Positions 15,256 to 30,272 of a DNA stretch of 64,000 nt are shown piece by piece. Position 1 is the first letter of the stretch. Each line of letters begins with the position of its first letter. This DNA is from Acidithiobacillus sulfuriphilus (GTDB lineage: Bacteria; Pseudomonadota; Gammaproteobacteria; Acidithiobacillales; Acidithiobacillaceae). Below the pieces are notes generated by a model. That model had not been told where the DNA came from, ran no database searches, and saw nothing but the letters and a program-made list of their open reading frames with translations. Where the stretch lies: contig NZ_RIZI01000194.1 of NCBI RefSeq assembly GCF_003721225.1, positions 1-64,000 on the forward strand, read 5' to 3'. A program made the position numbers and the translations under genes.

Positions 15256-15627
15256 TCATGCCGCAGCGCTCTTCGTGCCGATCGAAATCCATTCCAGCCG
15301 CTGGCCCTCGGCGATCCCCAAGCGCGCAATGCTGCCTGCGGCGACTTCGAGAGTGGCCCATGCTCCCCGGCAGGATTTCAGTCCATACGGCTTCACTCCC
15401 TCACGACAGGCCAAGACCATCTGTTCTCGATCCAGAAATACGATATCCAAAGGAAATCGCATACCCCAAGTATGCACACTGGCGCAGGGCATCAGCAGCA
15501 ATCCTTGTTCCTCATGAAGCGCTGACTTGCCTAAGAGCCCCTGCAATCGGTCCCAAAAACCGGCAGCCAGAACCACCTCGGACCAGAGAAGCTGCGTATT
15601 GCGCCGGATCGCGCCCACGACCTTCAA
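15256..15627 (-). CDS. DUF192 family protein
   Basis: A small protein (123 residues) of the DUF192 family, function unknown. Family features seen are the early GLLGKSAL segment, then MPCASVHTWGMRFPLDIVFLD with the conserved His-Thr-x-x-Met pattern, and a C-terminal LEVAAGSIARLGIAEGQRL. Unlike many relatives it lacks a clear signal peptide. Its start overlaps the tadC stop by 4 bases (ATGA), so it is translated from the tadB-tadC transcript. That pairing of DUF192 with Tad genes is seen in other bacteria and may mean a role in the apparatus, but this is inference. Confidence 0.85.
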   Translation of the reverse strand: MKVVGAIRRNTQLLWSEVVLAAGFWDRLQGLLGKSALHEEQGLLLMPCASVHTWGMRFPLDIVFLDREQMVLACREGVKPYGLKSCRGAWATLEVAAGSIARLGIAEGQRLEWISIGTKSAAA

Positions 15628-16505
15628 AATCCGCCTTCCTGAATGAACTTCATATAGATGACGAAGGCCAGCATCAGAAAGGTGATCGGGAAAATGAACA
15701 CCACTAGGGGGGCCAGAAGCTTCACCGGAGCTTCCAAGGCCAATTTCTCGGCGCGCAAGAAACGCTCTTCACGACGTTGTTCCGCCTGCGCCCGCAACAC
15801 CGGTCCGAGATCTCCGCCCCGTTCTTCGGACTGGATGAGCGCACTGACCAGGCTGCGTACCTCTGTCAATGTGACACGCTCGGCAAAGCGCCGAAACACC
15901 TCGATCTTCGGGGCGCCTGCCCGCAAATCGCGGATCGTGATCCGGAATTCGCTGCGCAAGGGCCCCGGCGGGCCCTTCTCCACCGCCACCTGCATGGCGC
16001 TGGTCAAGTTCAGGCCACCCTCAATCATCAGCGTGATAAAGTCCAGGTAGACGGGCAGCTCCTTCAGAATCAGCCGCCCGCGCCGCTTGGCCTGTTCTAC
16101 GAGCCATAGATCCGGGTAAAAACTCCCCATAAGCATGCTGAGAAACGCCAGCCAGACATTGAAAAAGCCGAATGCCGTGTAAAACAGCAGAACGAAGATC
16201 AACGGCGCAAGGGTGCCGATTATCTTCAGTGCCATGAACTCCCTGGCGCTCAAGAGATGATTCATCCCTGCCCGCTGCAAGCGCTGGTGTACCCGGACGA
16301 GGTGGCGATCGGGGATGAACACGATCAGACTGGATCTTATGAACTGGACCAATGGCCAGATGAGCCGCAACCCCTTCGGCAACGGATCCATGTAGTCGCG
16401 TGGCGAGGGCTCCATCTGCCGCGTCAGCATGCCCAGAGCGTACACGGCCAGCCCCACGGCCAGCCCGGCGAACAGTCCCAAAATCAATATCCATATCGCG
16501 CTCAT
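15624..16505 (-). CDS. tadC: Tad pilus inner-membrane platform protein TadC
   Basis: A 293-residue T2SS-F family membrane protein, partner of TadB in the platform that works with the TadA ATPase to assemble Flp-type pili. One transmembrane segment near the N-terminus (IWILILGLFAGLAVGLAVYA), a pair around 90-130, a cytoplasmic T2SSF domain with LDFITLMIEGGLNLTSAMQ and SEERGGDLGPVLRAQAEQRR, and a final hydrophobic helix. The ATG has GAGGG nine bases upstream. It lies 129 bases downstream of tadB and overlaps DUF192. No tadA, cpaB, cpaC or flp gene is present in the window. Confidence 0.9.
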   Translation of the reverse strand: MSAIWILILGLFAGLAVGLAVYALGMLTRQMEPSPRDYMDPLPKGLRLIWPLVQFIRSSLIVFIPDRHLVRVHQRLQRAGMNHLLSAREFMALKIIGTLAPLIFVLLFYTAFGFFNVWLAFLSMLMGSFYPDLWLVEQAKRRGRLILKELPVYLDFITLMIEGGLNLTSAMQVAVEKGPPGPLRSEFRITIRDLRAGAPKIEVFRRFAERVTLTEVRSLVSALIQSEERGGDLGPVLRAQAEQRREERFLRAEKLALEAPVKLLAPLVVFIFPITFLMLAFVIYMKFIQEGGF

Positions 16506-17486: not shown

Positions 17487-17816
17487 CGCTCCCTCAATTT
17501 TTGCGTGCCGCGCGACCAAGGTGTTGTCGGAACGCCTGTGTCGCGGCTCTCGCGGAATCAACGGCACCGCCACATACGCTTATGGACATTATTAAAGCAC
17601 AACCTGGAGACCGGCAACAGTTAGCCGAAAATCACATATCATAGTTCATATAATATTGTTTATACTTAATAAAATTTTGCATCTCTTACTGTCATAAAAC
17701 TGTCACACAAGGAGTGGAAAGACACAGCGCACCGCTGTATTGACATCGCCACATGCTGCGGTAACATTTGGTTTAGAAATTAAAAGCAGAAAATTCTCCG
17801 TTTGGAGGGAGCGCAC
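17487..17816. other. AT-rich divergent control region between tadB and the LuxR-type gene
   Basis: About 330 bases without a gene. 17590-17720 is markedly AT-rich compared with the surroundings and probably holds the tadB promoter, though no clear -35/-10 pair was found for that strand. A good promoter for the regulator lies at 17740-17767. Low GC here fits the idea that the island was acquired, but this is inference. Confidence 0.6.
17740..17767 (+). promoter_or_regulatory. Sigma-70 promoter of the LuxR-type regulator gene
   Basis: Perfect TTGACA, a 16-base spacer and TAACAT, about 50 bases before the ATG at 17817. It would drive the regulator and, with no terminator seen, possibly the prepilin/lysozyme genes downstream. 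Confidence 0.65.
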
Positions 17817-18494
17817 ATGTGGTCGAACCTGCCAGCGCAGCGCGCGGCGTTGGGACCGCGGTACCATGTCGTGGAAGCGGCACCATTTCGCATGGCGAGG
17901 GAATGGCGTGACCAAGGCTGGTTACGTCAAATCAAGGTGTACCGCCTGCGTCGCCAATGCAAAGGCTGGCAAGTGGCGCCTTGGTGGCGATTTCCGCCTG
18001 GACGCTGGCCGGCGCCGCCGCGAGAACTCATCGCTTGGGCACAGCGCCAGGCCGCCTCCAATGAGCAACATCCCTGTCACACCACCACCGCCCTGCGGCT
18101 CGCGGTCAGTTTCTTGTTATGTCCTTACCCGACCCAGATGGCGCTCTATTGCTTGGAGCTCTCCGAGGACTTGGAGACTCAGGTTGTTCCTATCCTCCAA
18201 GAAAGTTTGCGAACTTTTCACGCAATACTGGAAGCCGAGGAGCCTTTCCATCCCCAGCTCACCCCGGGCGATTTGCGCATCGCGCAGATGCTCCTGGAGG
18301 GTATTGGCCAAAGTGAGGTCGCCGCTCGACTCGGCCTGAGCGAAAGCACCGTGCGTTCGCGGATCGCGGTCCTGTGCCGACGCTATGGCGTCCCCAATCG
18401 TCGCGCGCTCCTCGCCTGCCTGTTCAAAACCATCGGACCCGACCAGCAAGGTTTGAGGCGATCCCCCCAATCGTTTCCGGCACAACAGGAATAA
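17817..18494 (+). CDS. LuxR/FixJ-type helix-turn-helix regulator
   Basis: A 225-residue DNA-binding protein. The C-terminal region (about residues 148-200) reads as a GerE/LuxR helix-turn-helix: LTPGDLRIAQMLLEG, then SEVAARLGLSESTVRSRIAVL and RRYGVPNRRALL. The N-terminal about 140 residues, Trp/Arg-rich early (WQVAPWWRFPPGRW), match no sensor domain that I recognise and have no receiver Asp pattern. ATG 17817 has GGAGG eight bases before it. A good TTGACA promoter precedes it. It stands divergent to tadBC and directly upstream of the prepilin-like gene, so it is the obvious candidate regulator of this island. The signal is unknown. Confidence 0.8.
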   Translation: MWSNLPAQRAALGPRYHVVEAAPFRMAREWRDQGWLRQIKVYRLRRQCKGWQVAPWWRFPPGRWPAPPRELIAWAQRQAASNEQHPCHTTTALRLAVSFLLCPYPTQMALYCLELSEDLETQVVPILQESLRTFHAILEAEEPFHPQLTPGDLRIAQMLLEGIGQSEVAARLGLSESTVRSRIAVLCRRYGVPNRRALLACLFKTIGPDQQGLRRSPQSFPAQQE

Positions 18495-18537
18495 GAGGCA
18501 CGTGCGTTTTTTCTTTGGGCGCCTCGAAAAACTCATC

Positions 18538-18578
18538 ATTCCCGCGAAAGTGGGAATCCAGTCCGGTGACGTCACCGG
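18538..18578. repeat. dRS3/REP-like repeat: ATTCCC-N8-GGGAAT plus 16-bp palindrome
   Basis: ATTCCC (18538-18543), eight bases, GGGAAT (18552-18557), then a perfect 16-bp palindrome CCGGTGACGTCACCGG (18563-18578). In one frame the first part reads FPRKWESSP, a peptide often seen where this dispersed repeat is translated. It lies between the regulator and the prepilin-like gene. Only one copy was found in the window. Confidence 0.7.
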
Positions 18579-18603
18579 TTCGCGTTTTCGTGATGGCGAT
18601 GTA

Positions 18604-19533
18604 ATGGAGGTTTTTGGAGGTGCCCTTGGAGGTATCCACCCGGAGCCGACAGCGAGTGCTTTGCGTTTCCGACATCCGGGGCGGCACTCCGAGGCGGGCG
18701 CCAGCGCCGTGGAGTTCGCCATCGCGGCACCCGCCCTGCTGCTGGCACTCTTGGGCACCTTCCAAACGGCACTGCTCTATCAGGCCCGCGCCCAACTGGA
18801 AGTGGCCACCCAGGAGGCGGTGCGGGCGGGGACCTTGCATGGGGCCGAACTCCAGTCTATCCGCGATGGCCTCGCCCGGGGATTGACGCCGCTCTATACC
18901 CACGGCCGGGACATGACGGCTCTGGCTAAGGGCTATGCCGCCGCGCAAGTAGCCGCCGGGCAGGCCGACATCCGCATCCTCAACCCCACCCGAGAGGCCT
19001 TTGCCGACTTCGCCGAACAGACCCGCGATCCCCCCCAGGGTCAGTGGGTCAGGGCCATCCCCGTGGACCATCTGGGCTATCGCCCGACCAGTGCCGGCAG
19101 CGGCCTCCATGTGCAGGACGCCACCCTCCTCAAGATCCAGGTCACCTATGTCCAGCCTCTCATCGTGCCCTTCATCAATCAGATCGGGCGGGGGGTCTAC
19201 CACATCCAGGAGGGTCTGGGCCAACTCGGCGTGCCCCAGTTCTTCGGCATCCCCTTGCGCCCTGTCATCGGCGCCGACGGACAGACCCGCTGGGGCATCT
19301 CCATGCAGGCCGAAGCCCTCATGCGTATGCAAAGTCCTGTGCTCTCTGATGCTCTGCCCCAAAGAGCGAGCCTGGAGCAACCCCAAGATGGCCCCGACGC
19401 GGGCAGCCCTGGCGATGGCGATCTCCAACCTATGCCTACCCCAGGGCAAACGCTGCCCACCATGCCCGATCCAGAAGCCCCGCCTCCGGACCATATCTGC
19501 AATGCAGGGACAGAAAACCGCCCCGCACCATAA
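18604..19533 (+). CDS. TadE-like prepilin/pseudopilin, first copy
   Basis: A roughly 309-residue envelope protein with a type IV prepilin-like N-terminus. After a basic leader, G32-ASAVEFAIAAPALLLALLG gives one hydrophobic helix with Glu at +5 after a Gly, the classic prepilin peptidase site, as in TadE/TadF pseudopilins. The remainder is periplasmic, with LKIQVTYVQPLIVPFINQIG (typical of TadE-like proteins) and a Pro-rich C-terminus with one Cys. The start is uncertain. ATG 18604 lacks a good ribosome site, though three GGAGGT motifs follow within 30 bases, and the frame is also open to a GTG at 18502. It is followed 18 bases later by the LprI-lysozyme gene. A broken second copy lies at 21838-22593. 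Confidence 0.75.
   Translation: MEVFGGALGGIHPEPTASALRFRHPGRHSEAGASAVEFAIAAPALLLALLGTFQTALLYQARAQLEVATQEAVRAGTLHGAELQSIRDGLARGLTPLYTHGRDMTALAKGYAAAQVAAGQADIRILNPTREAFADFAEQTRDPPQGQWVRAIPVDHLGYRPTSAGSGLHVQDATLLKIQVTYVQPLIVPFINQIGRGVYHIQEGLGQLGVPQFFGIPLRPVIGADGQTRWGISMQAEALMRMQSPVLSDALPQRASLEQPQDGPDAGSPGDGDLQPMPTPGQTLPTMPDPEAPPPDHICNAGTENRPAP
18967..19350 (+). repeat. Direct repeat copy 1 within the TadE-like gene
   Basis: About 380 bases are nearly identical to 22036-22415, with scattered silent changes and one short indel region. It covers the periplasmic core of the TadE-like protein. The flanks outside diverge rapidly. Confidence 0.9.
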
Positions 19534-19551: not shown

Positions 19552-20775
19552 ATGCACTCCACCCCCGCCAGAAGCGACGCGGCCCCCATCGCCAGCCTTT
19601 TGTTCCTGACCCTGGGCGCCGCATCCCCGGCGGACGCCGCCTCCTTCGACTGCCGCAACCCCGGCAACCCCACCGAGAAAACCATCTGCGCCGACCCGCA
19701 ACTGGATAGGCTGGATCGCGAACACAACCGAATCGCCAAGGAATTGATCATGCGCATGCAACAGGCCGGAAACTACACCCAGGCCCTCCAATACGTGCAA
19801 GACTCGGAGGAAAAATGGAAGAATGAACGCAACGCCTGCCGGACCGATCCCTTCTGCATCACGGATGCCTACGCCCGCCGCCTCGCGGTGCTCAACACCT
19901 GCTTCTACCCCGACCGGCCCGCCAACACCGCGCCGGCGCAGTCGACCCCCGGAGCCACGGTCTGCGCCAAAGGCAACAAGGTGGACTTCGCTTTCATCAA
20001 GAAGAATGAGGGCGCAATGCTGGACTTCTATGTGCCGGGATATCATGCCACCGATATGGCCACCGGACGCAACCTGGGAAAGGCAAAGCCCAACAAGGCC
20101 AAAAACGGGAAAGAAACGGAACCCCAACCCATACAAAACAGCGGGGTAACGGTCGGGGTGGGGGTTGATCTGGGGCAACAAACGGAGGATTCCCTGAGGC
20201 GTGCCATGCATCAGGAGGCGAAGGACTATGGCAAACCCGACGATGTGAAAATTGATGATATCCTGGATAGGGTAAAACCTTTCCTCTCCCCCCTGCGGAG
20301 AATGGACGCCGCAAACGCCCTTGAGGATTACAAAAAGAATCGTGGCAAATATCCGAGTCTGACGTCAGCGGAAGCCCGGTTCCTCTCCTCAGCCGTGCAG
20401 CACGACTATACGCAGCAAGCCGCGGACGTCTTCAACAAGAGCCAAAGGCAGGAACCCCCGATGGATTTCTGGAGCCTTCCCGCCGAGGCGCAGACCGTCC
20501 TGACCGACATCACCTACCATCATGGCCGCGGGGGGCTCACGCGCGTCCGCTCCCTTCTCCACCAAGGGAAGTGGCAAGAGGCCGTCGACAAACTCAGACA
20601 GATCGCTCCATCCTCCGGCTTCAAGGAGCGCATGTTGAAAAGAGCCACGTTGCTCCAAAAAGCCATTGATGGCGATTCCCTGCCCAAGGACGGGAACCCG
20701 TGCGCACCCAAACAAGCCGCCGCCGACCGGCGCACGGCGCTGTGGGAGCGCGTGCGGCGTCTCTGGTGGGCGTGA
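19552..20775 (+). CDS. Exported LprI-type domain fused to a pesticin/T4-lysozyme-like domain, copy 1
   Basis: A 407-residue exported protein with two domains. After a signal peptide (ASLLFLTLGAASPADA), residues about 31-117 match LprI/DUF1311, the lysozyme-inhibitor domain: FDCRNPGNPTEKTICADPQL, a helical stretch, KWKNERNACRTDPFC, AYARRLAVL, with four Cys in the usual places. A Pro/Thr linker follows. Residues about 140-400 resemble the pesticin muramidase domain: FIKKNEGAMLDFYVPG and SGVTVGVGVDLGQQ place E153, T200 and D206 like the E/T/D triad of pesticin, with the same six-residue T-to-D spacing. The gene thus appears to encode a peptidoglycan hydrolase fused to its own inhibitor-like domain. 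AGGAG precedes ATG 19552. The lysozyme-like domain is inferred from motifs only. Confidence 0.75.
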   Translation: MHSTPARSDAAPIASLLFLTLGAASPADAASFDCRNPGNPTEKTICADPQLDRLDREHNRIAKELIMRMQQAGNYTQALQYVQDSEEKWKNERNACRTDPFCITDAYARRLAVLNTCFYPDRPANTAPAQSTPGATVCAKGNKVDFAFIKKNEGAMLDFYVPGYHATDMATGRNLGKAKPNKAKNGKETEPQPIQNSGVTVGVGVDLGQQTEDSLRRAMHQEAKDYGKPDDVKIDDILDRVKPFLSPLRRMDAANALEDYKKNRGKYPSLTSAEARFLSSAVQHDYTQQAADVFNKSQRQEPPMDFWSLPAEAQTVLTDITYHHGRGGLTRVRSLLHQGKWQEAVDKLRQIAPSSGFKERMLKRATLLQKAIDGDSLPKDGNPCAPKQAAADRRTALWERVRRLWWA

Positions 20776-20810: not shown

Positions 20811-21782
20811 ATGCATCGCACTCTCTTGGGTATTTTCTTCGCGGTCGCCTTCTGGCCCATCGGCCACGCCATGGCTGAGGATGGCACACCACTCAATTGC
20901 CCGGCCATCGCGGCAAAGATGACGTACCGGGAATGCGGAAACCCCCAAACCCCGGTAGGAAAGGCGATCTGCAACAGCAAACTCCGAGGGTTCGATTATT
21001 TGCCGCTCGCCGACGGAAGCATCATCGGTGCCTATGTCAAAGCGTTGAGGGCCGCCGGGATTGGGACTGCGGACTGCAAGGCCCTGTTGGAATGGCACGC
21101 TGGTTACGAAAAACAACTGGCGGCCTGCGGCACCAACGACCAATGTCTCCTTAAAAATATGGACACATATAGCCGCACCCTCACCAAGATCGAAGACCGC
21201 CTGCAGACCCCCCTGAGCGATGCGGCCCTGCAGCGCTTTGCCGGCGGGGCGTGGTTGCAAAGCCCGGGGGAGAAGCCGACCCTGCTGCTGGAGCGCATCC
21301 GCCGGGGGCTGTCCCTTTATCCCTTGCCCCGCATGGCCCTGCCCAACGGCAACACCCTGTACTGGGGCTTTCAACCCCACAACGCCACCCTGCAGTCCCT
21401 GGTGATCGTCGACCGCCAAGGCACAGTCCAACTCGTGGGCGCCGTGGATGGCATCTACCTGGGCTTACCGGAAGGTAAGGCTGTTCCCCAGCTCGAACCC
21501 GATGCCCAAATCGCCCTCTTCGTCCGGGATGCCCAGGCGCTGCAGCAAAACCTGCCCGCCATCCGGGGCTGGGCGGCGGCGAGCCTCCTCGGCTTCAACG
21601 TCGAGTGCAACAAACCCGGCGCAGCGGCCCGCTGCTTCGCCGCCGAGACCATCGCCCTGCCGTTGCGCGCCTACGACCTCCGATGCAGGCAAAAGGTGCA
21701 TGGCAAAGTCCTCGTCAACCGCTGCCCCCTGCCGCTGCCCAAGGTGAGCGGGATCCTCTCTCCGGGGATGTTCTGGCAATAA
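20811..21782 (+). CDS. Exported Cys-rich protein, LprI-like N-terminus and unknown C-terminal domain, copy 1
   Basis: A 323-residue protein of no family that I recognise as a whole. It begins with a signal peptide (LLGIFFAVAFWPIGHAMA). The next about 110 residues have a Cys pattern and helical spacing reminiscent of a divergent LprI domain (TPVGKAICNSKLRGFD, CKALLEWHAGYEKQLAACG). The C-terminal about 200 residues contain LPNGNTLYWGFQPHNATLQS, a run of beta-like VIVDRQGTVQLVGAVDGIYL, IRGWAAASLLGFN and the ending SPGMFWQ; these are shared with the second copy at 23878-24852. AGGAG stands nine bases before ATG 20811. It follows the LprI-lysozyme gene by 35 bases, so they are co-transcribed. It is a plausible accessory or immunity factor for the hydrolase, but no function can be read directly. 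Confidence 0.65.
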   Translation: MHRTLLGIFFAVAFWPIGHAMAEDGTPLNCPAIAAKMTYRECGNPQTPVGKAICNSKLRGFDYLPLADGSIIGAYVKALRAAGIGTADCKALLEWHAGYEKQLAACGTNDQCLLKNMDTYSRTLTKIEDRLQTPLSDAALQRFAGGAWLQSPGEKPTLLLERIRRGLSLYPLPRMALPNGNTLYWGFQPHNATLQSLVIVDRQGTVQLVGAVDGIYLGLPEGKAVPQLEPDAQIALFVRDAQALQQNLPAIRGWAAASLLGFNVECNKPGAAARCFAAETIALPLRAYDLRCRQKVHGKVLVNRCPLPLPKVSGILSPGMFWQ

Positions 21783-21837: not shown

Positions 21838-22593
21838 GTGCTCAGTGGGCACATCAGGCATGGTCCGGGACAGCGTCATGGAGGATATGCGCAAAGGTTT
21901 GAGCCGGGGCTTCACACCCCTCTACACCACGGTCAGGACCTAGCGCCCTTGAATAAAGGATATTTCATGGCCCGGTGGGCGGCGGGACTACTACGGGTCC
22001 TGGGCTCCCCAGTGGTTCAGACTCTACCACAAACCGACATCCGCATCCTCAACCCCACCCAAGAGGCCTTTGCCGACTTCGCCGAGCAGACCCGCGATAC
22101 CTCCGGGGCCTGGGTCAGGGCCATCCCCGTGGACCATCTGGGCTATCGCCAGACCAGCCTGGGCAGTGGCAGCGGCCTCCATGTCCAGGACGCCACCCTC
22201 CTCAAGATCCAGGTCACCTACGTCCAGCCTCTCATCGTGCCCTTCATCAATCAGATCGGGCGGGGGGTCTACCACATCCAGGAGGGTCTGGGCCAACTCG
22301 GCGTGCCCCAGTTCTTCGGCATCCCCCTGCGCCCGGTCATCGGCGTCGACGGCCAGACCCGCTGGGGCATCTCCATGCAGGCCGAGGCGCTGATGCGCAT
22401 GCAGAGCCCCGTACTCGCTCAGGACCTGCCCAGCAGGGTGAGTGTGGAGCAGGGGCAGGACGGCGGTTCTGGGGCTAACGGCCCAGGGGCCGGAGATTGG
22501 GAACCCATCCCTCCACCGCCCAGCGACCTGCCCAGCATTCCCGATTCCGACACACCGCCACCGGAGCACATCTGCAATATCGGGCAGCAATAA
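21838..22593 (+). pseudogene. TadE-like gene, second copy, decapitated and frameshifted
   Basis: The region repeats the first TadE-like gene without its prepilin helix. 21878-21930 still encodes MRKGLSRGFTPLYTT in one frame (compare IRDGLARGLTPLYTH in copy 1), then hits a stop. The match continues in another frame as HHGQDLAPLNKGY and runs through the 380-base conserved core to a Pro-rich C-terminus ending at 22593. A shortened protein could still be made from ATG 21967 (AAAGGA six bases before; 208 residues), but it would be without a signal or membrane helix and so mislocalised. Most likely this is a remnant of tandem duplication that keeps the order prepilin, LprI-lysozyme, Cys-rich protein. 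Confidence 0.8.
22036..22415 (+). repeat. Direct repeat copy 2 within the broken TadE-like gene
   Basis: Counterpart of 18967-19350. Near identity at base level contrasts with the strong divergence of the following LprI-lysozyme and Cys-rich genes, which suggests recent gene conversion or a recombination joint. Confidence 0.9.
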
Positions 22594-22622: not shown

Positions 22623-23843
22623 ATGTCATACACCATGACCCAAAAGACGCAAGACGGGCTCGGTGGTCTGTTGCTTCTGGGCGTGATCCTCACGCAGGGA
22701 GCGGATGCAGCCACCTATGAAACCTCCTTCTATTGCGCAAAGGCCACTACTGCGACAGAAAACACGATATGCCATGACGAGCACTTGGCTGCACTAGACC
22801 GGCAAATGGCAAAAAGCTATGGTCAGTTGACCGTCACCATGAGGCAAGCAGGCAACTACACCGAAGCGCTCCAGTACGTGACCGAGTCCCAGAAAAAATG
22901 GCTCCAAGAACGCAACGCCTGCAGGGCAGACACCCTCTGCATCACCAATGCCTATGGACTCCGTCTAGCTATACTCAACGGCTGCTACCTCCCGGATAAG
23001 CCCGCTGCACAGCCCGCGCCCACTCCGCAGCCCAAACCATGCTCGCCAACTGATCGGGTGGACTACAATTTTATAAAAAAGAGTGAAGGCGCCATGCTTG
23101 ACTTCTATGTGCCGGGAGCATTTAAGGCCAATATCGAAACTGGCAAAAATCTAGGACCGCGATATCAAAAGAATAAAAAAACCGGCGATCTCGAGCAAAG
23201 AGCCATGGCGGCCAGTGGAGTCACGGTAGGGGAAGGTGTGGATCTTGGGCAGCAAACCATCGACAATCTAAGGCGCTACATGGAAATAGAGGAGAAGAAA
23301 TATGGGAAGCCTGATAGCGTCAAAATAGAAAATATACTATTCCAGGTAGAGCCATACATTGGCTTAAAAAAAGAAGCTGCAGTGAATGCACTAAATGACT
23401 ACTACGACAAAAATAATAAGATCTATCCGACCCTAAGAAAGGCAGATGCCGATTTTATTTCATCGGCAGTCAAACACGGTTATGCCGAAGACGCCGCGGC
23501 ACTATTCAACAAGAATGCCAATCCAAAAATGAATTTCTGGGCTTTACCTAGCGCCGTGCAGACCACCCTCACCGACATGAAATACCATTCCTATATCTCC
23601 AGCGTCGCCCAACATTACTATCGGGCGGACTGGGAGGGGGCCGCGGCTGAGTTCGAGACCCTTGCCACCGGGAAATATGCCCAATATAAAGCCCGTTTTC
23701 AGGCACGCGCCCAGATCCTGCGCGATGCCATCACGGATCAATCCCTACCAAAACAGGGTGATCCCTGTGCCCCGAAGAAAACACCTGTCGCCTTCAATCG
23801 TTCCCTATGGTGGGAAAGCCAGCGAGGACCCCGTTGGGCGTGA
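22623..23843 (+). CDS. Exported LprI-type domain fused to a pesticin/T4-lysozyme-like domain, copy 2
   Basis: A 406-residue paralogue of 19552-20775 with the same architecture: signal peptide (LLLLGVILTQGADA), an LprI/DUF1311 domain (FYCAKATTATENTICHDEHL, KWLQERNACRADTLC, YGLRLAILNGC), a Pro-rich linker, then the lysozyme-like domain. The putative catalytic triad is kept: E155 in IKKSEGAML, T201 and D207 in GVTVGEGVDLGQQ. Identity to copy 1 appears moderate (roughly half of residues by eye), and the DNA of 23050-23520 is clearly more AT-rich, with Lys/Asn/Ile-rich codons, so the two copies are old or of different origin. GGAGGAG precedes ATG 22623. Conservation of the triad in both copies supports enzyme function. 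Confidence 0.75.
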   Translation: MSYTMTQKTQDGLGGLLLLGVILTQGADAATYETSFYCAKATTATENTICHDEHLAALDRQMAKSYGQLTVTMRQAGNYTEALQYVTESQKKWLQERNACRADTLCITNAYGLRLAILNGCYLPDKPAAQPAPTPQPKPCSPTDRVDYNFIKKSEGAMLDFYVPGAFKANIETGKNLGPRYQKNKKTGDLEQRAMAASGVTVGEGVDLGQQTIDNLRRYMEIEEKKYGKPDSVKIENILFQVEPYIGLKKEAAVNALNDYYDKNNKIYPTLRKADADFISSAVKHGYAEDAAALFNKNANPKMNFWALPSAVQTTLTDMKYHSYISSVAQHYYRADWEGAAAEFETLATGKYAQYKARFQARAQILRDAITDQSLPKQGDPCAPKKTPVAFNRSLWWESQRGPRWA

Positions 23844-23877: not shown

Positions 23878-24852
23878 ATGATACGACAACTTATTTCCGG
23901 CACAGCAACTTGCGTGGCCATAACCTTCAGTTGGAGCGCGGGCGCAGCAGACATGTCCCTCAACTGCCCGGCCGTCGCTGCCCAAACCCAAGACAGCTAT
24001 GCGCGCGGCTGCAACCCACCATTGACCCCGCTGCAGGATGCCATTTGCAATTATAAGCCCAAGGTATGGACCGACAGTCTCCTGACCTTGGATTCTACCG
24101 TAGGCGTCCACTACGTCCGCGATTTGCGTGCTGCCGGCGCAGGCACACCCCAATGCAAGGATTTGCTCGAAAGCCACAAGGCCTACGAGAAAGAACTCCA
24201 AGGCTGCGGCAGCAACGGAGACTGTGTTCTCAAGGTCATAAGGAATTGGGCTGGGATATTATCGCACGTTGAAGATCGCCTGCGCCCTCCTCTGAACGAG
24301 GCGGCCCTGAAGAAATTCGCCGGGGGGATGAAGTTCCTCGATGGTCAACAGACGATCTCCCTGCTGAAACGCCTGGAACAAGGCATGGATCTCTACCCTC
24401 TGCCACAGGTGGCGTTACCCAACGGTAACGTCCTGGTCTGGGGTTTCCAACCCCACAATGCGCAAGTGCAGTCGCTGGCCGTGGTCAATCGCCAGGGTGC
24501 GGTGCAGCTCCTCGGCATCGTGGATAGGCTTTATCTGGCTCTGCCCTCAGGAAAAACTCAATGGGAGCCTGGGAAAGACGCACGGATCGCCCTTTTCGTT
24601 CGCGATCCGGCTGTCCTGAACCAGAATTTGTCCGCCATCCGCGCCTGGGCGGCGGCCAGCATCCTGGGCTTCAATCAGGATTGTCCGGGCAAGGATCAGA
24701 CCCGCTGCCAGGCGGCTGCAAAGCTCCCCCTGCCTATCCAGGCTTATAACCTGAATTGCACGGCCGCCAAGGACAAAATCATCAACCAGCACTGCGCCAT
24801 TTCCTTGCCGCAAGTGCCGGATAACGTCTCTCCAGGATTATTCTGGCAGTGA
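23878..24852 (+). CDS. Exported Cys-rich protein, LprI-like N-terminus and unknown C-terminal domain, copy 2
   Basis: A 324-residue paralogue of 20811-21782. Signal peptide (ATCVAITFSWSAGAA), then the Cys-spaced N-terminal half (NCPAVAAQ, LQDAICNYKP, CKDLLESHKAYEKELQGCG), and the shared C-terminal domain with LPNGNVLVWGFQPHNAQVQS, IRAWAAASILGFN and the ending SPGLFWQ. All Cys in the N-terminal half appear conserved between the copies, as expected for periplasmic disulfides. AGGAG lies before ATG 23878. It follows the LprI-lysozyme gene by 34 bases, the same spacing as in the first cassette. Confidence 0.65.
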   Translation: MIRQLISGTATCVAITFSWSAGAADMSLNCPAVAAQTQDSYARGCNPPLTPLQDAICNYKPKVWTDSLLTLDSTVGVHYVRDLRAAGAGTPQCKDLLESHKAYEKELQGCGSNGDCVLKVIRNWAGILSHVEDRLRPPLNEAALKKFAGGMKFLDGQQTISLLKRLEQGMDLYPLPQVALPNGNVLVWGFQPHNAQVQSLAVVNRQGAVQLLGIVDRLYLALPSGKTQWEPGKDARIALFVRDPAVLNQNLSAIRAWAAASILGFNQDCPGKDQTRCQAAAKLPLPIQAYNLNCTAAKDKIINQHCAISLPQVPDNVSPGLFWQ

Positions 24853-24911: not shown

Positions 24912-25619
24912 ATGTCCCTAAGCACCCTATTCCTAAACACCCCATCCCGTTTTGGCGCGTTGCTGATCCTGTCCACCGCGCTATGGAGCGCCCCCGCCCT
25001 GGCACAGACCGGCCTGCCCGCCGCCCAATGCAGCCGCGCGACCACTCCCACGGAAGGAGCCATCTGCGCCAACCAAGAACTCCGCGCCCTGGACACGGAA
25101 CTTGCCGAGGCCTATCACCATGCCTTGGCCGCTACTAAAAAGGATAGCAACGAGCGTCAAATACTCATTGCCGACCAGCGACAGTGGCTTGCCATGCGTG
25201 ATGCTTGTAAGGCGAATGTCGGGTGGTTGGCGGCGGCGTACCGCGAGCGTCTGGCGCAATTGCATCCAGGGGCTGTGCTGGAGCTATCTCCGATCGCGCT
25301 TCCCCAGTTCCTGGCGAAGCACCCAGACGCGGTCATTCAACTCACCAGTCAAAGTCCGGGCTGTAAATATTGTACGGACCAAGATCGCAGGATTTTCGCT
25401 GAGGTGGCGGCGCATCTGCCCGCGCATGTGGCCATCGCCCGGGTAGAGTGGACACCATGGTACCTTTTTCCCAAGGAAACTGCTTCGCTCACCGGATCCA
25501 TGCCGGGAATTCCAATGATCGCGATATTGCGTAATGGGAAGGTGGTCGATCGCATTACAGGTGCGCAGATAGACCCGGCATTGCTATCCCAAGCCATGGC
25601 CTCGGTGTTTCGGGAGTGA
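24912..25619 (+). CDS. Exported LprI-type domain fused to a thioredoxin-like domain
   Basis: A 235-residue periplasmic protein, third LprI-bearing gene type of the island. After the signal peptide (LILSTALWSAPALAQ), residues about 35-115 give a compact LprI domain (CSRATTPTEGAICANQEL, QRQWLAMRDACKANVGWL, YRERLAQL). The C-terminal half looks like a thioredoxin fold: VIQLTSQSPGCKYCTDQD with a CxxC active site (CKYC), then GSMPGIPMIAILRNGKVVDR with the cis-Pro loop and typical final strands. It could reduce or isomerise disulfides, perhaps in the Cys-rich LprI partners encoded just upstream. AGGAG stands before ATG 24912. It is the last gene of the array and converges on the Yip1 gene. Confidence 0.78.
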   Translation: MSLSTLFLNTPSRFGALLILSTALWSAPALAQTGLPAAQCSRATTPTEGAICANQELRALDTELAEAYHHALAATKKDSNERQILIADQRQWLAMRDACKANVGWLAAAYRERLAQLHPGAVLELSPIALPQFLAKHPDAVIQLTSQSPGCKYCTDQDRRIFAEVAAHLPAHVAIARVEWTPWYLFPKETASLTGSMPGIPMIAILRNGKVVDRITGAQIDPALLSQAMASVFRE

Positions 25620-27383: not shown

Positions 27384-30272
27384 ATGGCTGAAAAAATGGA
27401 GCCGCGCCCGGTGATCCTGGAAACACAGCAGTCCCAGGAGCAATTTTATCGTAGCCTGCTGGCCATGGGGCGCATCCTGCGGGATAGTCTGGAAGACGCC
27501 GTTGATACCGTATTCCAGCGCGTGGCCGAACGACTGGCAGCGGATCTGGATCTGCCCGTGGTGTGGATCGGTCGCCTAGGACCCGGGGCTACCTGGGTGC
27601 AGGTGGTGGCGACCGCGGGCGCTGCGCGGGAGTACACGGAGGGCCTGCGCATCAGTAGCTTGGCAGACATCCCCGAAGGGCAGGGGCCGGGAGGGCGAGT
27701 CCTGCGTTCGGGCGGGGGAGTGACTGCCGGCGATGTGGTGAATGCGCCGGACTTCGCCCCGTGGCGAGAGCGGGCCATCCGCTTTGCGCTGGGTGGCAAT
27801 ATGACGGCCGCCGCGACCGTGGGGGACGGCGGCCAGGTGATCATCGGGCTTTTTCATCACATCGGTGGTGCTTTCCCCGGGGCTACGGCACCCTTGATGA
27901 CGGGTCTGGTCCAGGACTTGGCGGCCTTCCTCCGACAACAGGCCACGGCCAAGGATTATGTCCGCCTCCAGTCCTACCAGGAAGCGGCCATAGCCGCACA
28001 ACAGGAGCTCCTCCGCCAGGAAAACCCCCAGGCCATGTATCAACGGCTGGTGGACATCGTGGTGGCGCAGACCGCAGCCATCGGGGCGTATATCGTTACC
28101 CTGGTGGCCGACGGCGAGGGGCTCGGCATCGTGGCGATGGCGGCCGATGACCCGACGCTCTGTACTGCCATGGAACAAGTCTACATCGCGCAGGATCTCC
28201 GCAATGGCGCCCATAGAGATGTCCTGGCTAGCCTGGCCTTCCGCGAAAAATCCCCCCAAGGCCCGGTGGGCTCCCCCTTATCCCCCGACATGCAAGCCCT
28301 GCAGCGCCACTATCCGGCCTTGTTGCGGATCCGTGGTGCCATGGCTTTTCCGGTCTTTGCCGGTGATGCAGCGGAGCCGGCCGCGGTGTTATTGATCCAG
28401 GCTGACGATCCCGGGCATTTCACGCCCCCGCTGCAGCAATTGCTGGCCCAACTGGCCACTAGCCTGGGGCTGGCCCTGTCGCAGTGGCGGCAGCATTGCG
28501 CCCTCATAGAGGCCGAGGCAGCCATCCATCAAATGGCTTTCTATGACGACCTCACCGGTCTACCCAATCGCCGTCTCCTCGAAAACCAACTGGAACAGGA
28601 TATGGCCCGCTCCCAGCGGCACGGCAAGCTGCTGGCCGTATGCATGCTGGATCTGGATGGCTTCAAGCCCGTCAACGATAGCTACGGCCATGACGCCGGC
28701 GATGAGGTGCTGGCGGCCCTGGGACAACGCTTGCGCGCAGTCCTCCGCAAATCGGACTTCGTGGCCCGCCTGGGCGGGGATGAATTCGTACTGCTGGTGG
28801 AGGACATTTCCGACCTGGGCGATCTCACCCGGGTTCTGGACAAGGCACAGACGGCCGTTACCACCCCCATCCCCCTGAGCAATGGAGCAGCCGTCCGGCT
28901 CCAGGCGAGCATCGGGGTATGCCTCCAACCCTTCGGCGAAGGAGAAACCGGCGATCAACTCCTGCGCCGTGCCGATCAGGCCCTTTACGAAAGCAAGGCC
29001 CACAAGGCCGACCGGGACCGCTCCTGGGTGTTCTTTGGCGAGGAGGTGGCACGGGAACGGCAGCGCACGCCAGCCCAACGGCTATTGGACGAAGGCGCTC
29101 TGGAGGTCTGGTATCAACCCATCCTCGCGAACCACTCCCGCAAGGTGGTGGGAATGGAGGCCCTGGCGCGGCTGCGGGATCATGACGGGCGGATCCTCTA
29201 TCCGGGGGAATTCCTGCCCCAGCTCGCAACGGAAGATCTGACCGATCTCAGCAGGCTGGTTCTGACCCAGGCACTGGCCGATTTGGCTATTCTGGATACC
29301 CGGGGATGGTCTCTCTGGGTTTCTTTCAATGTGACCCCGGAGTCCTTCTGCGGGCAATGCGTGCCCTGCTTGCAGGGGGTCATTGCGGCGAGCGGGATCG
29401 ATCCGTCCCGCATCACCCTGGAGATCCTGGAGGGCAGCGATTTTCTGGAGCGCGACACCGCGTTGTCCGTCCTGCACGAAATCAAAGCGCTCGGCATCCG
29501 TCTGGCCCTGGACGACATTGGCAGCGCCTATGCCTCCCTGCTGCGCCTGAAGGAGTTGCCGGTCGATGAGATCAAGCTGGACCAGGGCTTCATCCGCACC
29601 CTGGAAGCGCGGCCCCAGGACCTGCACTTTGTGAGGACCATTCAGGACCTGGCCATGGAGTTGAAGGTGGATCTGGTGGTGGAAGGGGTGGAAACGGAGG
29701 ACATCCTGGACGCCATGATGACCACGGGAGCGCCCTATCTCCAGGGCTATGTCATATCCCGGCCCATTCCCTTTGCCCAACTGGAGCCGTTTCTTGCCGG
29801 GTATTCCTGTCCCGATCATGACCTGCCCAAGAGCCTTTTCGGATTCTATGCCGGCACGTTGAGCTCCCACAGCGCCATCAAGAAGATGCTCATGATCAAC
29901 CCCTCGGAAATGAATCCCGAGACCTTGGGGAATGCCAGGCACTGCCGCGGACACGGCGTGCTGCATCGCCTAGGATATGGCGATGACAGCCATTTGCTGC
30001 AATTGCATGACAATTATCATCGCGCCCTGGGCGACGCGGCCGAAAATGCCACAGAATCATTCAAAAACCATGGATGGGATGCGGTGGAGGAGTCGCTGGA
30101 ACTCTTTCTGGCGGCGGTCATGAGCGAGTGGCGGATGGCGACCGGCAACGCTAAAACACACGCTCATGATGCTGCCGTCATAACCCCACCATCCGCGCCT
30201 CCACGCCAAGTCCCTTCAACTTCTCCAGGATGGCGCGCGAGTCCACGCAACTCGGATCGTAGGCAACCTTGA
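27384..30272 (+). CDS. GAF-GAF-GGDEF-EAL-CZB cyclic-di-GMP signalling protein
   Basis: A 962-residue cytoplasmic protein with both diguanylate cyclase and phosphodiesterase modules. Two GAF-like sensor domains occupy about 25-170 and 200-365. The GGDEF domain has RLGGDEFVLL (motif 464-468) after DDLTGLPNRRLL. The EAL domain has the motif at 592-594, and metal/catalytic residues are kept in LEILEGSDF, LALDDIGSAY, EIKLDQGFI and VVEGVETED, although several surrounding residues are unusual. The C-terminal part (about 825-930) matches a CZB zinc-binding domain by an early His (about 829), Cys854 in RHCRGHG and H875/H879 in HDNYH. Zinc could therefore tune its activity. Both catalytic motifs look intact. 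The ATG has a poor ribosome site. Its 3' end overlaps the convergent small gene by 95 bases. Confidence 0.88.
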   Translation: MAEKMEPRPVILETQQSQEQFYRSLLAMGRILRDSLEDAVDTVFQRVAERLAADLDLPVVWIGRLGPGATWVQVVATAGAAREYTEGLRISSLADIPEGQGPGGRVLRSGGGVTAGDVVNAPDFAPWRERAIRFALGGNMTAAATVGDGGQVIIGLFHHIGGAFPGATAPLMTGLVQDLAAFLRQQATAKDYVRLQSYQEAAIAAQQELLRQENPQAMYQRLVDIVVAQTAAIGAYIVTLVADGEGLGIVAMAADDPTLCTAMEQVYIAQDLRNGAHRDVLASLAFREKSPQGPVGSPLSPDMQALQRHYPALLRIRGAMAFPVFAGDAAEPAAVLLIQADDPGHFTPPLQQLLAQLATSLGLALSQWRQHCALIEAEAAIHQMAFYDDLTGLPNRRLLENQLEQDMARSQRHGKLLAVCMLDLDGFKPVNDSYGHDAGDEVLAALGQRLRAVLRKSDFVARLGGDEFVLLVEDISDLGDLTRVLDKAQTAVTTPIPLSNGAAVRLQASIGVCLQPFGEGETGDQLLRRADQALYESKAHKADRDRSWVFFGEEVARERQRTPAQRLLDEGALEVWYQPILANHSRKVVGMEALARLRDHDGRILYPGEFLPQLATEDLTDLSRLVLTQALADLAILDTRGWSLWVSFNVTPESFCGQCVPCLQGVIAASGIDPSRITLEILEGSDFLERDTALSVLHEIKALGIRLALDDIGSAYASLLRLKELPVDEIKLDQGFIRTLEARPQDLHFVRTIQDLAMELKVDLVVEGVETEDILDAMMTTGAPYLQGYVISRPIPFAQLEPFLAGYSCPDHDLPKSLFGFYAGTLSSHSAIKKMLMINPSEMNPETLGNARHCRGHGVLHRLGYGDDSHLLQLHDNYHRALGDAAENATESFKNHGWDAVEESLELFLAAVMSEWRMATGNAKTHAHDAAVITPPSAPPRQVPSTSPGWRASPRNSDRRQP

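Follow-up and report, generated by a model that had tools for sequence, protein, structure and literature searches.

Organization of the locus

We analyzed a stretch of 64,000 nucleotides from Acidithiobacillus sulfuriphilus (contig NZ_RIZI01000194.1, positions 1 to 64,000; hereafter the window) around an open reading frame at 19552..20775 that encodes an exported protein, termed effector 1, with an LprI-type module and a pesticin-type domain. The gene lies directly behind a tadE-like minor pilin gene and is followed by a gene for an exported candidate immunity protein. The window locus is a duplicated cassette; across residues 151-240 of copy 1, its tadE copies share 93-100% identity. Its features are as follows.

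18613..19533, plus strand: TadE-like minor pilin (open frame from 18502; Pfam TadE, E 4.5e-11)
19552..20775, plus strand: effector 1, with signal peptide, LprI module, linker and predicted pesticin-type muramidase domain
19651..19893, plus strand: LprI-like helical module of effector 1, residues 34-114
19969..20679, plus strand: predicted pesticin/T4-lysozyme-fold domain of effector 1, about residues 140-376
20008..20010, plus strand: codon of E153, putative catalytic acid (invariant 23/23)
20149..20169, plus strand: codons T200 to D206, counterparts of pesticin T201/D207
20811..21782, plus strand: immunity candidate 1, exported, 323 amino acids, with an LprI-like N domain and a C domain of Ivy-like fold
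21838..22593, plus strand: second tadE copy without the pilin N terminus (duplication remnant)
22623..23843, plus strand: effector 2, LprI module and pesticin-type domain, 47% identity to effector 1
23878..24852, plus strand: immunity candidate 2, exported, paralogue of 20811-21782
24912..25619, plus strand: exported LprI and thioredoxin-like protein with a CxxC motif (LprI E 3e-9)

Domains and catalytic residues of effector 1

The first-pass annotation of this DNA had proposed an exported protein joining an LprI-type domain to a pesticin-type muramidase, and this architecture was borne out. The pesticin part scored above the curated Pfam cut-off (PF16754, 49 bits versus 25.8). The LprI profile PF07007 gave 19.1 bits for effector 1, under the cut-off of 22, and 26.1 bits for its paralogue effector 2. 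A lysozyme-type second fold had also been anticipated, and the structure model predicts a pesticin/T4-lysozyme fold for the C-terminal domain. In the same model (predicted template modeling score, pTM, 0.57), the linker is disordered and the docking of the LprI module against the muramidase is not confident.

E153, T200 and D206 had been suggested to repeat the order and the six-residue Thr-Asp spacing of the pesticin active site, in agreement with our alignments. T200 and D206 align with the pesticin T/D pair, and the E, T, D triad was conserved in 23/23 sequences in one comparison and 19/19 in another. The protein sets A1 (23 proteins) and A2 (20 proteins) were hand-picked from the proteins found. 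E153 would be the equivalent of pesticin E178. Judged from sequence, the C-terminal domain should be a pesticin-type muramidase, predicted to cut the glycan strands of peptidoglycan.

Six unnamed PHROGs families matched effector 1, including two on the pesticin part and two on the LprI part. No phage record matched, and a phage origin was rejected. Plasmid matches (28 records, ten of them listed) covered the muramidase part only, with the listed alignments beginning at query residue 144.

Exchange of C-terminal domains behind the LprI module

Compared in blocks of 30 residues, the first 120 residues of effector 1 agreed with four other proteins at 22 to 30 positions per block (73-100%), and the C-terminal parts behind this carrier were unrelated: P0026 and P0027 carry a T4-lysozyme domain (PF00959), and P0025 and P0029 have no Pfam match beyond LprI. 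LprI was joined to PF00959 in loci L044 and L045. The LprI region of effector 2 (residues 22-125) was 87-93% identical to P0038-P0041, of which P0038-P0040 carry a GH19 domain; P0041 resembles a shortened form of the GH19 type. A more distant LprI copy of the P0034 kind is attached to a lipase-like domain on another contig of the window genome (C21; L041:5997-7887), where the next gene encodes an ankyrin-repeat protein whose N terminus is hydrophobic.

Two effectors of genome G008 are alike at 86/92 residues of the carrier, 70/252 of the toxin and 40/189 of the next gene. The reverse pattern was seen between G000 (effector 2), G008 and G022, with 38-41% identity in the carrier, 83-88% in the toxin and 75-81% in the next gene, the G008 copy of which ends at 205 amino acids, cut by the contig end. 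Together these comparisons place the exchange breakpoint between LprI and the enzyme, and indicate that the enzyme and the next gene are exchanged together. At the level of sequence, the LprI part is a carrier behind which C-terminal toxin domains are exchanged, as in polymorphic toxins.

Two further arrangements were seen. In P0004 of A. sulfuriphilus, the start of tadE is fused in frame to a pesticin domain and most of the LprI module is gone. At L032:7289-12557, beside an M23 peptidase gene, a GH19-like protein (under cut-off) and an LprI-less pesticin-domain protein have in common a 34-residue stretch that is perhaps a second carrier module.

The downstream gene as immunity candidate

An inhibitor dedicated to one enzyme should co-vary with that enzyme. 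The toxin domain covaried closely with the downstream gene (r 0.92-0.97, 19 pairs), whereas its covariation with the LprI module was low (r 0.35, 17 pairs, after two pairs whose frame has no LprI part had been dropped); thus, the separate downstream gene fits this expectation and the LprI module fits it poorly. The pair test left out four loci: L044, of lysozyme type and not alignable, where another gene intervenes ahead of the downstream gene; L045, for which there was no sequence of a downstream gene; the interrupted L040; and L027, which has no downstream-type gene. Two points weigh on the other side: physical linkage alone accounts for part of the high covariation, and in the 10 tadE-bearing loci the LprI module tracked the toxin better (r 0.76).

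The C domain of the downstream protein resembled the fold of Ivy, a periplasmic lysozyme inhibitor (1gpq, 1xs0), although it may instead have another known fold. The Ivy profile PF08816 had no match among 20 downstream-protein members at E<=10, and hhalign gave 0.1%; family membership was therefore rejected by profile and the fold resemblance alone was kept. A His-containing loop was seen by eye, with Pro-His in 14/19 downstream proteins; the corresponding loop position has His in 4/6 Ivy sequences and Pro-His in 1. The downstream protein differs from Ivy in lacking its two loop-flanking cysteines and in adding an LprI-like N domain. We regard it as a putative exported cognate immunity protein. 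Several immunity-type genes among the loci inspected are unpaired.

We consider it probable that effector 1 serves as the toxin in a polymorphic antibacterial toxin-immunity cassette. This reading is built on what was observed: the domains present and their fold, the invariant triad, the exchange of modules, the covariation of toxin domain and immunity gene, and the linkage to Tad pilus genes. The signal peptide and LprI module would be the carrier part, and the C-terminal domain would be an exchangeable toxin acting in the periplasm, here a pesticin-type muramidase active on the glycan strands. The exported product of the next gene would neutralize it and so guard the producer's own wall, and toxin domain and immunity gene would be swapped behind the carrier as a single unit. 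Delivery into neighbors by the Tad pilus, or at the pilus tip, would be the likely original route.

Linkage to Tad pilus genes and their loss from the window genome

The likely route is suggested by the gene order in many relatives, where the cassette comes immediately after tadE and Tad-pilus genes precede it. At locus L033 the genes are ordered LuxR, OmpA-like, Flp-like (below cut-off), TadG-like, two unassigned genes, RcpC, secretin, TadA, TadE, LprI effector and downstream gene. An LprI effector was directly next in 12/15 TadE loci in which 1.2 kb or more could be read past tadE (G000, G002, G003, G004, G006, G008, G011, G012, G013, G015, G016, G017, G018, G022 and G026), which is no unbiased estimate, as the loci were reached via pesticin, LprI or RcpC matches. 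At 13 of the 15 loci RcpC was matched as well, and the LprI effector was next in 10 of these. The slot in G003 (L048:3219-5641) is filled by a 452-residue SLT-like gene (17.1 bits versus a cut-off of 21.3), followed by a 375-residue exported-looking neighbor and an unpaired downstream-type gene. Behind tadE lies an unrelated minus-strand gene in G016 and a transposase-like open reading frame in G017. Three kinds of locus were not counted: G001, where just 0.6 kb is left behind tadE and, by eye, seems to hold the decayed remains of a carrier; G005 and G025, which lie at contig ends; and G019, in which TadE was not found. Seven genomes have a second kind of RcpC locus, close to which no pesticin or LprI match was found.

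Across genomes, LprI toxins were present in 15/20 RcpC-positive and 1/9 RcpC-negative genomes (p 0.003). Counting G017 (interrupted copy) and G028 (possible cut-off lysozyme type at a contig start) gave p 0.014 to 0.041. Only the Pfam pesticin and LprI families were used to find the toxins, so that weak copies are missed, and p ignores kinship; we regard this co-occurrence as weak.

Genes of Tad type upstream of the cassette in the window, with a regulator and a conserved neighbor, are listed below. The names TadB and TadC are our assignments for two genes that Pfam labels T2SSF.

15256..15627, minus strand: DUF192 gene (Pfam PF02643, E 2.5e-18); accompanies tadC in L032, L034, L044 and L045, with order conserved
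15624..16505, minus strand: TadC-like inner-membrane platform protein (Pfam T2SSF, E 6.7e-20); homologues adjoin TadE in L032, L034, L044 and L045
16635..17573, minus strand: TadB-like inner-membrane platform protein (Pfam T2SSF, E 2e-16)
17802..18494, plus strand: LuxR-type regulator (Pfam GerE, E 5.6e-6); homologue at L033:1340-2044

The Tad core genes that stand between LuxR and tadE in L033 are absent at window positions 18494-18613, and the tadB-, tadC- and tadE-like genes and the cassettes are kept. The window genome has no RcpC match, and its best TadA and secretin matches, at 35% and 30% identity, are probably paralogues from other machines. As read from gene content, the window genome has lost the Tad core; its cassettes would then be relics, perhaps kept for immunity, or would use another exit. 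The tadE open frame runs upstream through 18502-18613, where there is a short inverted repeat with a terminator-like site (18557-18538), a stretch possibly linked to the Tad-core deletion.

Among the neighboring genes, the LprI and thioredoxin-like protein matched the NCBIfam thioredoxin TrxC at E 0.0012, far under cut-off. Its homologue in L048 follows an unpaired downstream-type gene, and P0035 looks recombinant, with an effector N terminus joined to a protein of this kind. An ordinary cyclic-di-GMP protein (GAF-GGDEF-EAL) lies nearby at 27384-30272.

A housekeeping role was also weighed, in which the muramidase opens the producer's own peptidoglycan so that the Tad pilus can be assembled, with the downstream protein keeping the damage in check. 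Envelope-spanning machines are often accompanied by wall hydrolases, and both the slot directly behind tadE and its SLT-like occupant in G003 agree with such a role. However, the carrier stays constant while the enzyme type changes, the same kind of carrier bears a lipase-like version, immunity-type genes occur unpaired, and both cassettes are still intact after loss of the Tad core. We judge this role unlikely.

The role of the LprI module

The first-pass annotation had further suggested a self-restrained hydrolase, whose muramidase would be held inactive by the LprI domain on the same chain and released through cleavage, binding of a partner or an altered redox state. Pesticin, GH24 and GH19 belong to one structural superfamily, which speaks for restraint, as does the r of 0.76 in the tadE-bearing loci. 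LprI-type proteins have been reported as lysozyme inhibitors or likely immunity proteins in the passages on them in two papers (PMC12135965, PMC8867033), and they adjoin lysozyme-like genes at two loci, as expected of an inhibitor. In L088 (a Gammaproteobacteria metagenome-assembled genome, MAG), a gene with peptidoglycan-binding and phage-lysozyme domains (weak pesticin match) is followed by two exported-looking proteins ending in LprI, the first of which, the only one Pfam-tested, scored 20.3 bits, under cut-off. In L091 (a Burkholderiales MAG), an LprI protein adjoins an RTX protein whose phage-lysozyme match falls short of the cut-off. At both loci LprI looks like the immunity side, which agrees with its presumed role next to T6SS (type VI secretion system) effectors in the same passages.

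On the other hand, LprI also occurs on other enzymes, including the lipase-like domain, its covariation with the enzyme is low, the close covariation belongs to a separate protein, and the model has a disordered linker and no confident docking. The self-restraint mechanism is not supported, and we hold it to be quite improbable.

The loci with LprI came in part from a scan of genome contigs with one short peptide pattern, which returned six loci and says little on absence elsewhere. In L035, L036, L038 and L040 a 150-residue LprI-only protein precedes an LprI-pesticin effector, with a peptidyl-arginine-deiminase-type gene nearby; no Tad gene was recognized within the fetched stretch.

Other origins

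Searches of the window genome returned no match to GspG, a T2SS (type II secretion system) marker, or to VipB, the sole T6SS marker searched, and origins from either system were rejected, as was anti-phage defense (no PADLOC match among 5 proteins). Contact-free release as a diffusible bacteriocin or a scavenging exoenzyme, functionally independent of Tad, would suit the Sec-type signal peptide, the precedent of pesticin, which is a diffusible bacteriocin, the retention of the genes without a Tad core and the cassettes away from Tad genes in some relatives, but Pfam recognized no receptor-binding domain, the T2SS and T6SS markers are missing and Tad linkage recurs among relatives, so that we find it very unlikely.

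Relation to known systems

The polymorphic toxin-immunity cassette that we favor resembles several described systems in part. In the passages of PMC9927483 on them, the T6SS effector VgrG3cp (with TsiV3cp) and pesticin likewise have a pesticin-like muramidase with catalytic T and D six apart, and the immunity gene of VgrG3cp lies directly downstream. The carrier here differs, being a signal peptide and LprI rather than a VgrG part, and no T6SS sheath gene was found in the window genome. The WHIX T6SS effectors, as presented in parts of PMC12135965, also join a single constant module to a wide range of wall-cutting domains, pesticin-like ones among them, and some of their neighbors carry DUF1311/LprI, taken as immunity. 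Unlike there, LprI is here inside both the toxin chain and the immunity candidate, the toxin has a signal peptide, and the linkage is to Tad rather than to T6SS. LprI of Mycobacterium tuberculosis, known to us via citing papers (PMC12135965, PMC8867033), is an exported member of the same Pfam family (PF07007/DUF1311) reported as a lysozyme-inhibiting lipoprotein, whereas the domain here is a carrier on an enzyme.

The Kil Tad-like pilus of Myxococcus xanthus mediates contact-dependent killing and has variable TadEFG-like tip proteins (PMC8460266, PMC12075869); such minor pilins have been proposed to form variable tips (PMC12075869). A secreted wall hydrolase was hypothesized for Kil, the toxin of which "remains to be discovered" as of 2021 (PMC8460266). 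Kil belongs to distant bacteria and works with the type III secretion system T3SS*, and the passages on Kil describe no comparable toxin-immunity cassette. Neither LprI-carrier toxins nor Tad-linked toxin-immunity cassettes were described in the titles or abstract openings of the open-licence literature matches listed.

Implications

Tentatively, and with less confidence than in the cassette itself, we propose that the Tad pili of Acidithiobacillaceae may carry, or load at the TadE tip, polymorphic LprI-carrier enzymes that attack wall or membrane, each matched by an exported immunity protein of its own (in the pesticin case, one joining LprI to an Ivy-like domain). If true, these pili would form a contact weapon of Tad type whose toxins are identified, and the LprI domain, so far labeled a "lysozyme inhibitor", would be recast as a docking module common to toxin and antidote. 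Proteins annotated as "lysozyme inhibitor LprI family" can be toxin carriers and call for caution, and the downstream C domain is a candidate new immunity fold against lysozyme-type toxins. The repeated placement of tadE next to a polymorphic wall hydrolase and a likely immunity gene makes toxin delivery by Tad pili testable in culturable, non-pathogenic acidophiles. The cassette and its frequent linkage to pilus genes hint at an undescribed weapon of acid-loving bacteria.
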